NCBI GenBank assembly: GCA_900659855.1
Contig: CAACVI010000045.1
Location: 186,985-250,984, forward strand
Reading direction: 5' to 3'
Source: Candidatus Desulfarcum epimagneticum
Lineage (GTDB): Bacteria; Desulfobacterota; Desulfobacteria; Desulfobacterales; CR-1
Length of the DNA: 64,000 bases
The position numbers and the translations under genes were made by a program. The notes beneath the pieces are model-generated. The model searched no databases and was not told the DNA's origin. It saw only the letters and a program-made list of their open reading frames with translations. This document shows, one piece after another, positions 25,376 through 49,764 of the stretch. Each line of letters starts with the position of its first letter. Position 1 is the first letter of the stretch.

Positions 25376-25453
25376 TCCATTCACACATTAAAAAACAGAC
25401 AAACCCGTGAAAAACGGAATCGTATAAAAGAAAAGAAATAAGGAGTCTTGATT

Positions 25454-26146
25454 ATGACACAACCAAAGCCCGCCTCGAGCAATCCCCTGGCGCTTCTGGG
25501 GCTTGACTCCGAGGACATGTTCGCAAAAGGCGGATTCGGCGTGGTCTTTTCCCGCGCCGGCGTGGGCAAAACCGCGTTCCTGGTTCAGCTGGCCATCAAC
25601 GCCATGGCCGCCGGAAAAAGGGCCCTGCACATCAGCCTCAACGACCCGGTGAGCAAGATCAACCTCTGGTACAAAGAAGTCTCCGGGAACGCCGCCGGAT
25701 CATTCATCGACATGACCGGCGACGATCTGTTTGAAACCATCCAGTCCCGCCGGTTTATCATGACGTTCAAACCCGAGGAGTTCGGGGCCGCCAAACTGGA
25801 GGAGCGCGTGGCCGAGCTGGCCGATCAGAACATTTTTTCCCCGGACATCATCGCCATTGACGGCGTTCGATTTGACGAAGGGGCCGACGGCCTTTTGTCG
25901 GACCTGAAAGCCGTTTCGGAAAAACGCCGGGTCCCCATGTGGCTCACCATGCGCACGCACCGACAGGAAAGCGGGGACAAAAGCCAGGCGCTCAAACCCT
26001 TTTCCGATTTCGCCCATCTGTTCGATGTGGCGGTTCAGCTGTATCCCGAGGGCAAAAACATCATCGTCAGGCGAGTCAAAGGGGGCGACGGCGTCCAGGC
26101 GCTTCTGGACCCCGCCACCATGCTCGTCAAAAAAGCGGACCGATAA
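25454..26146 (+). CDS. RecA/KaiC-fold P-loop ATPase
   Basis: ATG 25454 has AAGGAG 8 bases upstream. The 230-residue protein has Walker A SRAGVGKTAFLVQLA (about residues 33-47), LHISLNDPVSKINLWY and Walker B DIIAIDGVRF. It is about the length of a single KaiC/RadA-like domain with no extra DNA-binding segment. The role is unknown. It follows EF-G by 78 bases in the same direction and may be cotranscribed. Confidence 0.7.
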   Translation: MTQPKPASSNPLALLGLDSEDMFAKGGFGVVFSRAGVGKTAFLVQLAINAMAAGKRALHISLNDPVSKINLWYKEVSGNAAGSFIDMTGDDLFETIQSRRFIMTFKPEEFGAAKLEERVAELADQNIFSPDIIAIDGVRFDEGADGLLSDLKAVSEKRRVPMWLTMRTHRQESGDKSQALKPFSDFAHLFDVAVQLYPEGKNIIVRRVKGGDGVQALLDPATMLVKKADR

Positions 26147-26159
26147 AGCCCCGCCGGCG

Positions 26160-28442
26160 TCACGCCTTCCGATCCCGGACCGAGGCCCCCATCTCCTCAA
26201 GCCTCGCCCGGATCCGGTCGGCGGTCTCCCAGTCCCGGCGGCGCCTGGCCGCCTCCCGTTCGTCCATGAGCCCCCGGATTTCGGAATCGGCGGATTCTTT
26301 GTCGAAATCAATGACGCCGATCACGGAGTCCACCTTCCTTAAGGCGTCGATGATTTTCGCGGCGGCGCCGGCGCCCATGCGGCCCTCGCCCACCCGGATA
26401 TTGATTCTTTTCACCACCCCGAACACGGCGGCCATGGCCGCTGAAATATTGAAATCGTCGTCCATGGCGTTGATAAATCCCTGTTTGATGTCATAGGCGA
26501 ACTGGTCGGAGTCCGGCTCCGGGTCCGGGGCGTCGGGGGGAATGTTTTTCAGCGACTCCACGCAGCGGTCGATGCGGGCGATGGCCCGCCCGGCGGCCTT
26601 AAGCCCCTCTTCCCGGTATGACAGCGGTTTGCGGTAATGGGTGGACATGAGCCAGCGCCGGATCTGCCGGCCGGAAAACCCCTTGTCCAGCAGAAACGGA
26701 ACCGTCAGGCCGGGCATTTCCTCCTCGGCCTTTTTTCCCCGGACCAAAACCCGGTCGCAGTGGAGCCAGAACCGGGCCAGGGGGTTTCCGGAGCAGGCCG
26801 ATGAGATGGCCATGACGTTTTCATGGTGGGGGAAGACCAGCGCCCGCCCGCCGGAGTGAATGTCAAAGGTCTCGCCTAAGTGTTTCATGGACATGGCGGC
26901 GCACTGGATGTGCCAGGAGGGCCGGACATTGCCCCATTCGGTGGGGAAGAAAAGGCCCCGTTTAAGCTCGGAGAGTTTGGCGCGCTTAAAAAGCGTGAAA
27001 TCCCCGGGGCTGTCCTTTTCATAATCGTCCATGTCCACCGTGGCGCCCATCCTCATTTTTTTCGTGTCCATCCCGGACAAACGGCCGTATCCCGACACCC
27101 GGGAAATATCAAAGTAAAGGGACCTGAGCTTTTCATAGGCCAGGCCTTTGCGCGACAGCTTTTCAGACAGGGCGATCATGTCGTCGATGTGCTCGCTGGC
27201 CCGGGGATAGGCCGAGGCCTCCTCAATCCCGAGGGTCCTCAAATCCTCCATGATCCGCTCAATGTTTTGGTCGGCGAACGCCTTGAGATCCATGCCGGCC
27301 GCGTCGGCGCCGGCTATGGTGTTGTCGTCGTAATCCGTGATGTTCATCACATGCCGCGTCTCGTATCCCCTCAGCCGGAAATACCGCGCCGCCATGTCCG
27401 AAAACACAAAGCGCCGGCATTCGCCGATGTGCGTCCGGGCATGCGCCGTGGGGCCGCAGGAGTACATGGAGACTTTGCCCGGCTCCAGGGGGGAGAAGCT
27501 CTCCATGGATTTGGACAGGGTGTTGAACACCCGGATGGGCGAAGGCGTCTGCTCCACGAAAAGGGGCGTGCTCAAATAACGCTCGCCGCCGTCCGGGAAG
27601 AGGGTCGTCACGGTCCCCTCTTTCATGGACATGGCGATTTTGGCGGCCACAAACATGGCGGCGCCGCTGCTCATGCCCACAAAAAGCCCCTCCTCCCGGG
27701 CCAGGCGCCGGGTCATCTCAAAGGCGTCCTCGTCATCAATCTTGATTTTCTCGTCCAGGCAGTCCTTGTCGAAAATCTCGGGCCGGTAGGCCTCTTTGAG
27801 ATTTTTCAGCCCCTGGATTTTATGCCCCCGGTAGGGCTCCACCCCGATGATCCGGATATCGGGACTGAGTTCCTTGAGCTTTCGGGAAAGGCCCACCACC
27901 GTGCCCGTGGTGCCGATGGTCGCCACCACCACGTCCGTCTTTCCCCCGGTCTGCTCCCATATCTCCGGGGCCGTATGCTCATAGTGGGCCCTCCAGTTGG
28001 CCTCGTTGTTGAACTGGTCCGTCATGAAATAAGCGTCGGGCTTTTCCCGGCAGAGCTGGTACACCTTTTCGATGGCGCCGTCGGTGCCCAGACGTCCGGG
28101 GGTCAGCAGAATCTCGGCCCCCCGGGCCTTGAGTATTTTCCGGCGCTCCACGCTGGCGGATTCCGACATCACCAGAAGCAGGCGGTATCCCTTCACCGCG
28201 CAGACCATGGCCAGACCGATGCCGGTGTTTCCGCTGGTGGCCTCGATGACGGTCTTGTCCGGGGTCAGCGCGCCGGTTTTTTCCCCGGTCTCGATCATAA
28301 AAAGCGCGGGCCGGTCCTTGATGGAGCCCCCGGGGTTGAGACACTCCATCTTGGCCAGTATCCGAACAGCGGGATTGGGGTTGAGCTTTTTGATTTCCAC
28401 CATCGGGGTGTTTCCGACGGCGTCCAGTATGGAAGGGATCAT
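26160..28442 (-). CDS. cysteine synthase fused to a cysteinyl-tRNA synthetase-like domain
   Basis: In this 760-residue protein residues 1-305 are a cysteine synthase/CBS-type PLP domain: PLP lysine in NPGGSIKDRPA, TSGNTG and GTTGTVVGL. Residues 315-760 are a class Ia CysRS. It keeps zinc-site residues (MYSCGPT, WHIQCAAM, FPHHEN) and the DALR-like end. The HIGH motif reads HIGE, and KMSKS is replaced by KKAEE in VLVRGKKAEEEMPG. Both halves handle cysteine, so channelling is plausible, but loss of KMSKS argues against normal aminoacylation. Alternatives are a cysteine-activating ligase or a persulfide-forming enzyme. A canonical cysS is expected elsewhere. Confidence 0.88.
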   Translation of the reverse strand: MIPSILDAVGNTPMVEIKKLNPNPAVRILAKMECLNPGGSIKDRPALFMIETGEKTGALTPDKTVIEATSGNTGIGLAMVCAVKGYRLLLVMSESASVERRKILKARGAEILLTPGRLGTDGAIEKVYQLCREKPDAYFMTDQFNNEANWRAHYEHTAPEIWEQTGGKTDVVVATIGTTGTVVGLSRKLKELSPDIRIIGVEPYRGHKIQGLKNLKEAYRPEIFDKDCLDEKIKIDDEDAFEMTRRLAREEGLFVGMSSGAAMFVAAKIAMSMKEGTVTTLFPDGGERYLSTPLFVEQTPSPIRVFNTLSKSMESFSPLEPGKVSMYSCGPTAHARTHIGECRRFVFSDMAARYFRLRGYETRHVMNITDYDDNTIAGADAAGMDLKAFADQNIERIMEDLRTLGIEEASAYPRASEHIDDMIALSEKLSRKGLAYEKLRSLYFDISRVSGYGRLSGMDTKKMRMGATVDMDDYEKDSPGDFTLFKRAKLSELKRGLFFPTEWGNVRPSWHIQCAAMSMKHLGETFDIHSGGRALVFPHHENVMAISSACSGNPLARFWLHCDRVLVRGKKAEEEMPGLTVPFLLDKGFSGRQIRRWLMSTHYRKPLSYREEGLKAAGRAIARIDRCVESLKNIPPDAPDPEPDSDQFAYDIKQGFINAMDDDFNISAAMAAVFGVVKRINIRVGEGRMGAGAAAKIIDALRKVDSVIGVIDFDKESADSEIRGLMDEREAARRRRDWETADRIRARLEEMGASVRDRKA

Positions 28443-28504: not shown

Positions 28505-29182
28505 TCATGCCGTCAGCCCCTCCAGCGCCGCTTCAATCTGCCTGAAAACGCCCGCCTGATCCGCAAGGGCGTCGATGACAAAAAAACGCCGGGGCTCCGC
28601 AACCGCCAGTTTGAGGTAGCCCTCCCGAACTTTTTCGTGAAACGCCAGGGCCTCTTTTTCAAAACGGGTCTCATCCCCCTGCCCCAGCGCGGCCCGGCCC
28701 CGGTCCCGTTTAAGGGCCCGTTTAAGGCCCTCCTTTGGGGAAAGGTCCAGAAGAAAAGTGGCGTCAGGCGTCAAATCCCCCACCGAGCGGCGGAAAAGCT
28801 CCCGAATCCAGTCCGGGTCGATCCCCCGGGCGAATCCCTGGTAGGCCAGGGTGGCGTCGAAATAACGGTCGCAGATCACCGACTTCCCCGAGGCCAGCGC
28901 CGGGCGAATCAGGCGCGCGGCGTGCTGGGCCCGGTCCGCCATGTAAAGAAGAAGCTCGGCGTCGGAATCGAGAGGCTCGCCGTCCGGGTCCAGAAGGATG
29001 TCCCTGATTTTCATCCCCGCGCCGGTCCCCCCGGGCTCCCGGGTGACCACGCACCGGCGGCCTTTTTTTTCCAGAAACCGGGACATGGGGCCCGCCTGGG
29101 AGGTCTTGCCCGATCCCTCCACGCCCTCAAGGGTGATGAACAAGGGCCCGGGTCCGGTTTTCAAATCATGATTCCGGGACAT
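28505..29182 (-). CDS. tmk: thymidylate kinase
   Basis: Start 29182 gives a 225-residue protein; upstream codons would extend further into the preceding gene. The P-loop is TLEGVEGSGKTSQ, followed by TREPGGTGAG and CDRYFDATLAYQG, all dTMP kinase motifs. It phosphorylates dTMP to dTDP. The start overlaps the end of the YhaM-like gene, so the two are coupled. Confidence 0.92.
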   Translation of the reverse strand: MSRNHDLKTGPGPLFITLEGVEGSGKTSQAGPMSRFLEKKGRRCVVTREPGGTGAGMKIRDILLDPDGEPLDSDAELLLYMADRAQHAARLIRPALASGKSVICDRYFDATLAYQGFARGIDPDWIRELFRRSVGDLTPDATFLLDLSPKEGLKRALKRDRGRAALGQGDETRFEKEALAFHEKVREGYLKLAVAEPRRFFVIDALADQAGVFRQIEAALEGLTA

Positions 29183-30113
29183 AGAAATGCCGCTCCAAAA
29201 GCCTGTGGTAAGGGGTCCATGACTCATCCGGGTCCTGTTTCATGATAAATTCCCGGACCCCGTTCATCTTGGCGTCCATGTCGTCCACCATATGAAGCAA
29301 AAGGGCCTCCAGGGTCTTGGGCGGCTCCGGGGACCCGAATTCCCGGGAGCCGTGGTGGGCGGCCACCATGTGTCTGAGCAAAACCGCGTCTTTTTCCGGG
29401 AAATCCCCGGCCCGGGCGATTCTCTCATCGATCATGGCGCATCCCATGATGATGTGGCCCACCAGACGCCCCTTGTCGGAATAGTCGATGCGGGTCGTCC
29501 ATTCAAACTCCCGGATTTTCCCGATATCGTGAAGCGCGGCCCCGACCAGGAGAAGGTCCGTGTTGATCCCGGCGTAGTGCCGGCCTATTTTATCGATGAG
29601 AAGGCACATGGACAGGGTGTGCTCCAAAAGCCCCCCGATATAGGCGTGGTGCATACTTTTGGCGGCCGGCGCCGCCTTGAAAACCGGCGCGAAGTCCTCG
29701 TCTTCAAAAAACGCGTCCAGCAGTCTTTTGAAATGGGGGGTCTCAATGGCCGACAGAACTTTTTTGAGCCTTGAAAACATGGCCTCAATGTCCTTGTCGG
29801 TGGCGGGGAGGAAATCCGCCGGGTCCCGGTCGTACGGGGAGGCGGCCTTCATGTCCGCGACCACCGCCTGGAGGCTTCCCCGGTACTCCGAGACGCGGCC
29901 TGTCACAAACACGATGTCTCCGGAGGAAACCGCGTCCCGAATCTCCGCCACATTGTCCCAGGCCACGCCCTTAAGCGTCCCGGTCCGGTCCGACAGGGTC
30001 ACATTCAGGTAGGGCTCCCCGTCCTTTTTCCTCAAAAGATTCTTTTCGGAAAGCGCGAACACGTCCCCTAAGGAGTCTCCGGCTTTGAGCTGGTCGATGA
30101 ACTGTTTTTTCAT
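29166..30113 (-). CDS. YhaM-like HD-domain protein, probable 3'-5' exoribonuclease
   Basis: This 315-residue protein has an N-terminal OB-fold (YLNVTLSDRTGTLKGVAWDN...GDIVFVTGRVSEYRGSLQAVV). An HD phosphohydrolase domain follows (HHAYIGGLLEHTLSM, GAALHDIGKIREF, RHMVAAHHGSREFGSPEPP). This is the architecture of YhaM, which degrades RNA and single-stranded DNA. tmk follows and overlaps. A family B repeat lies upstream. Confidence 0.87.
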   Translation of the reverse strand: MKKQFIDQLKAGDSLGDVFALSEKNLLRKKDGEPYLNVTLSDRTGTLKGVAWDNVAEIRDAVSSGDIVFVTGRVSEYRGSLQAVVADMKAASPYDRDPADFLPATDKDIEAMFSRLKKVLSAIETPHFKRLLDAFFEDEDFAPVFKAAPAAKSMHHAYIGGLLEHTLSMCLLIDKIGRHYAGINTDLLLVGAALHDIGKIREFEWTTRIDYSDKGRLVGHIIMGCAMIDERIARAGDFPEKDAVLLRHMVAAHHGSREFGSPEPPKTLEALLLHMVDDMDAKMNGVREFIMKQDPDESWTPYHRLLERHFYVPES

Positions 30114-49478: not shown

Positions 49479-49507
49479 TTGACAATCCGTCCATAATGTC
49501 ATACAAA
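49479..49507 (+). promoter_or_regulatory. promoter of the cobalamin riboswitch transcript
   Basis: TTGACA (49479-49484) and TACAAA (49502-49507), 17 bases apart, lie immediately upstream of the riboswitch. Confidence 0.6.
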
Positions 49508-49514
49508 CATGAAA

Positions 49515-49690
49515 AAAAGGCGCCTGAAAAGGCTTAATAGGGAATCCCGTTTAAATCGGGAACGGTCCCGCCGCTGTGACTCCGAATAACAAAACCCTTC
49601 AGACATGCTCATCGCCACTGTCCCGGGTCCACCGGGATGGGAAGGCCGTCTGAAAGAGCGGAGAAGTCAGAAGACCTGCCTTTTTCCAAA
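49515..49690 (+). promoter_or_regulatory. cobalamin (AdoCbl) riboswitch aptamer
   Basis: The landmarks of the cobalamin aptamer occur in order: AGGGAATCCCGTTTAAATCGGGAA, GGTCCCGCCGCTGTGACTCC, TCATCGCCACTGTCCCGG and the 3' conserved GAAGTCAGAAGACCTGCC. Spacing is normal. Binding of coenzyme B12 usually favours the downstream terminator, found at 49765. Confidence 0.93.
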
Positions 49691-49764
49691 CACCGTGAAC
49701 GCCTGCGACGCGACAGGGGAAACGGAATATTTCAAAGCGAAAGGGTCAAGAAAACTGGGTGCAG

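Follow-up and report, generated by a model that had tools for sequence, protein, structure and literature searches.

A cysteine synthase fused to a cysteinyl-tRNA synthetase-like module with degenerate ATP motifs: a candidate tRNA-responsive enzyme of Desulfobacterota

Why should an enzyme that makes cysteine be joined, in one polypeptide, to a relative of the enzyme that activates it, and what might the second half do? The question is raised by a gene at positions 26160-28442 (-) of the window, by which we mean the whole 64,000-nucleotide stretch of Candidatus Desulfarcum epimagneticum DNA that was analysed. The first-pass annotation had read it as one polypeptide made of a cysteine synthase and a half resembling cysteinyl-tRNA synthetase (CysRS). 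This was borne out by the open reading frame, which falls exactly at these positions and encodes 760 residues with a CysM-type synthase (residues 1-298) followed by a full-length CysRS-like module (302-760), by its homologues, and by the Pfam matches, which include a complete CysRS architecture (PALP 5-284, tRNA-synt_1e 316-617, DALR_2 656-710 and CysS_C 720-759). The cysteine synthase domain, of PLP fold type II, occupies 27549-28442 (-) (PF00291, and TIGR01136 above the cut-off). It is followed by the CysRS-like catalytic domain (residues 302-617, 26592-27539 (-); PF01406 and the structural superposition given below), a DALR helical bundle domain (residues 656-710, 26313-26477 (-); PF09190) and an anticodon-binding domain (residues 713-760, 26163-26306 (-); PF23493, match 720-759). 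A chance frame or an assembly-artefact fusion is ruled out, since the frame is open in more than 100 genomes and its products form one clade. The AF2 model of the fusion (mean pLDDT 85.6) has a pTM of 0.60, so that the orientation of its two halves towards each other is unreliable. Residues 1-292 of the model match CysK/CysM structures, and its CysRS module superposes on the CysRS structures 8qhp, 1u0b and 1li5 (Z 47-49), the whole module matching the tRNA-bound 1u0b_B over 434 aligned residues (Z 48, rmsd 3.8).

In the synthase half, the core residues of the SIKDR, TSGNTG, GTTGT and SSGA segments, which hold the PLP lysine and the phosphate and substrate loops, are invariant across 97 homologues; the PLP-binding lysine is Lys42 in NPGGSIKDR (28317-28319 (-), 97/97), and the PLP active site is likewise invariant in 140 aligned fusions. 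The protein exceeds the NCBIfam cut-off of the cysKM subfamily (364.5 vs 344.15 bits) and falls below those of the narrower cysK and cysM equivalogs. A lysine is also present in all 140 fusions at position 213 (27804-27806 (-)), which we take to align with Arg220 of M. tuberculosis CysM. That arginine binds the phosphate of O-phosphoserine, and Lys213 is compatible with O-phosphoserine use by the fusion; E. coli CysM presumably also has an arginine at this position, so that a basic residue there is no proof of such use. The sulfur donor of M. tuberculosis CysM is the CysO thiocarboxylate, which is unlikely in sulfide-rich cells; sulfide is abundant in sulfate reducers.

Both ATP motifs of the CysRS half are degenerate. 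As the first-pass annotation had it, HIGH has become HIGE (H338-I-G-E341, 27420-27431 (-)), and a first His combined with a last His or Asn is found at this position in only 1 of the 140 fusions. The KMSKS loop had been read as KKAEE; its degeneracy holds, while the register was one residue early, the position that aligns with the motif of the genome's canonical CysRS being KAEEE (residues 571-575, 26718-26732 (-)). A KMSKS-like loop occurs in eight of the 140 fusions, all of them deep members that retain KMSRS, and one of these also has HLGN. Otherwise the loop is hypervariable, so that KKAEE is not conserved among fusion homologues. The KMS state changes at least eight times over the fusion tree, and loss of the ATP motifs is spread across it. 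The degenerate loop had been taken to indicate a new reaction; its hypervariability points instead to loss of the ATP step. Loss of KMSKS alone is no proof of a dead enzyme, because the E. coli CysRS variants K266A and K269A retain translation activity in a cell-free assay (PMC5660078).

A second, canonical cysS, for which a search had been suggested, was found in the same genome (3.26 Mb, 99.7% complete; G000, C1:110005-111411) with HIGH and KMSKS intact. Hence the fusion is a paralogue and not the housekeeping synthetase, and the idea that it is the sole essential CysRS was rejected. By manual count, 33 of the 36 same-order carriers also have a separate CysRS; the three that lack one (G031, G033 and G036) are incomplete genomes, and a CysRS*-like gene occurs in G033. 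In that genome the product of L175 (G033:C79), which has KMSKS, HVGN and RHHDYN and apparently no anticodon domain, looks like the published CysRS*. We also observed, in several fusion genomes, another type of canonical CysRS (L125, L176-L179 and L181-L184), in which HIGN, KMAKS and HVHHTNE replace HIGH, KMSKS and FPHHENE.

The residues predicted to read the anticodon have been kept. E. coli CysRS recognizes G34 of tRNA-Cys by hydrogen bonds from Arg427 and Asp436, by stacking of Trp432 and by a water-mediated contact of Arg423 (PMC12684709). The corresponding residues of the fusion are R729, R733, W738 and D742 (E. coli R423, R427, W432 and D436; 26217-26258 (-)), and among the 140 fusions the pattern is R/R/W-F-Y/D in 137, one of which is truncated before D742, and R/K/F-Y/D in 3. 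The most conserved positions of the anticodon domain are R729, D742, R745 and D757. The variability of each motif was compared with that of random sets drawn from the positions that canonical CysRS keeps invariant. The G34 readers together proved less variable than such sets (P 0.02-0.04); HIGH (P 0.02-0.03) and KMSKS (P of about 0.001 or below) proved more variable. Taken alone, the result for the G34 readers is modest; it gains weight because the readers persist in a clade that has neither the zinc cysteines nor the ATP motifs. Furthermore, the fusions have new invariant residues of their own (R344, S441, L493, T468, T375 and K605), which argues that the module evolves under selection of its own and is no decaying relic. 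The conserved anticodon-reading residues thus point to tRNA binding and regulation, and from these four to six residues we infer that the CysRS half probably still binds tRNA-Cys.

The zinc site, which in CysRS holds the cysteine, had been described as kept. This applies to Cys329 (E. coli Cys28; 27456-27458 (-); Cys in 122/140), Cys514 (Cys209; 26901-26903 (-); 121/140) and His539 (His234; 26826-26828 (-); His in 140/140), and not to the fourth ligand, the glutamate (E. coli Glu238), which is replaced by Val543 (26814-26816 (-); Glu in 108 of 140 fusions and Val in 17). The window copy therefore has three of four ligands (C-C-H-V). The complete CCHE set is present in 99 of the 140 fusions and W510 is invariant; in about 30%, the window copy included, the set is incomplete, so that cysteine sensing cannot be universal among the fusions. 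In one divergent clade both zinc cysteines are gone, and this clade retains every G34-reading residue. Zinc loss alongside extra CysK genes amounts to one independent event on the tree.

No CysE was found in the window genome, its four weak matches being, when the sequences were read by eye, other left-handed-helix acyltransferases; the genome has three PALP genes, of which the fusion alone is of the CysK class. CysE is absent from 59 of 117 fusion genomes, vs 35 of 180 non-carriers. No CysK-class enzyme other than the fusion occurs in 29 of 48 CysE-less carriers, the window genome among them; the same holds for 0 of 28 CysE-bearing carriers. In addition, CysE and an extra CysK were gained or lost jointly in six of eight independent tree pairs, with none opposed (p = 0.03). 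This co-occurrence suggests that CysE pairs with stand-alone CysK and that the fusion works without CysE. As a separate observation, the CysE-like genes of the Desulfobacterota genomes fall into two classes, one above the TIGR01172 cut-off (61 genomes) and one, in many other genomes, scoring about 165 bits in frames of 300-350 residues; the latter is perhaps a distinct long serine acetyltransferase, and in G003 one such gene adjoins a stand-alone cysK.

The neighbours of the fusion gene are housekeeping genes (surE, an HD-domain protein, tmk, RNase J and ftsK) and give no regulatory hint; the upstream tmk (thymidylate kinase, 28505-29227 (-)) adjoins it in most relatives, as determined by neighbour clustering. 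No tRNA genes were found in 34 relative loci, and no Rfam element near the fusion gene. Convergent to it lies a frame at 25448-26146 (+) for a 232-residue P-loop protein, RecA/KaiC-like by eye and without a Pfam match; in the neighbour clustering, 41 of 81 loci show next to the fusion an antisense-strand cluster that overlaps with this place. In 62 of 81 loci (e.g., L028:2893-3879), though not in the window, the gene immediately downstream of the fusion encodes a protein of some 330 residues without a Pfam family. A cobalamin riboswitch (95 bits) is located at 49501-49697 (+) of the window.

We propose that the gene encodes a CysE-independent CysM-type synthase, possibly using O-phosphoserine, whose dead CysRS half is a regulator that docks tRNA-Cys; judged from the sequences, the chances for and against this reading appear about equal. 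The synthase half would make cysteine without CysE, possibly from O-phosphoserine. The CysRS half would no longer make Cys-AMP, its anticodon domain would dock tRNA-Cys, and its zinc could, in most lineages, hold cysteine. The charging of tRNA-Cys, free cysteine, or both might then switch the synthase up or down, and cysteine supply would thereby track the demand of translation. Control exerted on the synthase itself would make sense because the usual feedback point is missing without CysE. The more specific proposal, that the charging state of tRNA-Cys directly controls cysteine production, at the protein level, through a fused ATP-dead CysRS that reads its anticodon, is tentative and somewhat less probable than its negation. 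The use of O-phosphoserine is a guess, and CysE might be replaced by an unrecognised acetyltransferase.

Several other roles for the CysRS half have to be weighed. In favour of the suggestion that the fusion is a cysteine ligase like MshC is the fact that MshC is itself a CysRS paralogue, the structures of which match the AF2 model at Z 41-43, although only to residue 712. A ligase would need ATP activation of cysteine, and the HIGH and KMSKS motifs are lost or variable across the fusions, so that this reading is unsupported; moreover, the fusion misses the NCBIfam MshC equivalog cut-off by far (172.5 vs 485.1 bits), and MshC lacks the C-terminal anticodon domain that the fusion has (PF23493 at 720-759). 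The related suggestion of cysteine persulfide formation fits an activity that CysRS can have, but that synthesis requires the PLP-carrying lysines of KIIK and KMSK (PMC5660078). The window copy has NTIA and KAEE there, and the second lysine of each is mostly lost in the family, leaving the published route without support; we regard a ligase or persulfide synthase as highly improbable. An active, unusual auxiliary CysRS, fed cysteine directly by the fused synthase, would account for the full CysRS architecture with its tRNA-reading part, for the deep members described above and for a score just short of the NCBIfam cysS equivalog cut-off (336.6 vs 340 bits). However, most lineages have lost both ATP motifs and conserve no replacement for them, and nearly all carriers retain a canonical CysRS, which makes this role improbable.

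Among the readings that dispense with ATP, the CysRS half could be a HisZ-like module that senses only free cysteine and perhaps a nucleotide, with the anticodon residues serving as structural or dimer contacts and tRNA uninvolved. The complete zinc set of most fusions, the invariance of H539 and W510, the lack of any other feedback where CysE is absent and the HisZ precedent (PMC9437257) would fit such a sensor. On the other side stand the clade with neither zinc cysteine but with all G34 readers, the missing glutamate of the window copy, and the presence of charged RNA-contact residues, beyond core hydrophobics, among the conserved anticodon-domain positions; we consider it unlikely. The CysRS half could also be a passive scaffold for oligomerisation, stability or docking to, e.g., the canonical CysRS, as its faster divergence would allow (42% average identity between pairs of a thinned set, vs 63% for the CysM half), but the selective retention of tRNA-reading residues and the new invariant positions render this improbable. 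Finally, a PLP enzyme and a tRNA-Cys reader on one chain recall RNA-dependent cysteine synthesis, known in archaea and some bacteria (PMC5424206), and the synthase might act, in a SepCysS-like manner, on a precursor attached to the tRNA-Cys held by the CysRS half. Yet SepRS was not found in the genome (best match 28.7 bits vs a cut-off of 381), the canonical CysRS is present, and the synthase half structurally resembles enzymes of free amino acids, all of which make this reading very improbable. The tRNA-Cys-docking regulator remains the reading that we prefer.

Whole or partial copies of the fusion were detected in 117 of 297 Desulfobacterota genomes, at identities down to 43%, and in 36 of 40 genomes of the same order. 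When 54 fusions and 22 stand-alone CysRS were placed in one tree, a single well-supported branch separated the two groups, and one origin of the fusion is enough. Outside the phylum, a search of the plasmid collection gave one place with full coverage, in the clostridium Acetoanaerobium noterae; it was rejected as a fusion, since it consists of three separate genes, cysK-cysE-cysS. The fusion might have arisen from an operon of adjacent genes of this kind. No description of a cysteine synthase-CysRS fusion was found in a literature search conducted mostly outside subscription journals, and a review on duplicated synthetases names, for CysRS, only CysRS* and MshC (PMC9437257). NCBI-style models can mislabel the fusion proteins as CysRS or as plain cysteine synthase. 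If the proposed role is correct, more than one third of the sampled Desulfobacterota would use direct control of an enzyme by tRNA, and in CysE-less bacteria tRNA gating would replace the usual CysE feedback. The fusion suggests a route by which such bacteria may make and regulate cysteine.

The proposed arrangement can be compared with several known systems. Cystathionine beta-synthase and similar PLP fold-II enzymes have a catalytic PLP domain followed by a C-terminal ligand-binding regulatory domain, as the fusion would, but their regulatory part is of the CBS/ACT type and that of the fusion is a synthetase. M. tuberculosis CysM, an O-phosphoserine sulfhydrylase whose sequence is 40% identical to the synthase half, stands alone, whereas the synthase of the fusion is joined to a CysRS module. 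The SepRS-SepCysS system likewise couples PLP chemistry for cysteine to tRNA-Cys, with other folds (that of CysK is not known to be related to SepCysS) and with a requirement for SepRS, which this genome lacks. MshC, the cysteine:GlcN-Ins ligase of mycothiol synthesis, is a CysRS paralogue with the same catalytic fold and a role outside translation; it differs in being ATP-dependent, in having no C-terminal anticodon domain and in not being fused to CysK, while the ATP motifs of the fusion are lost. The same order has another CysRS-like protein besides the canonical one, the CysRS* of Desulfobacterales that is coupled to SelC*/SelB*, but it is active, has no anticodon domain, charges SelC* and is unfused (PMC9437257). 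In function the fusion would resemble HisZ, the HisRS-like regulatory subunit of the ATP phosphoribosyltransferase HisG, in which a synthetase-derived protein unable to adenylate serves to make the amino acid of its parent synthetase (PMC9437257); a regulatory role of the fusion would follow this precedent. HisZ is a class II, separate subunit that acts at the first step of its pathway, the fusion is class I, fused and at the last step, and, as the two are not homologous, the likeness would be functional only. In addition, we found no claim of retained anticodon reading for HisZ (PMC9437257), in contrast to the fusion, which retains the anticodon-reading residues. If our reading is correct, the fusion would be the cysteine counterpart of HisZ, in which the tRNA-reading surface was apparently kept after the ATP chemistry had been lost.
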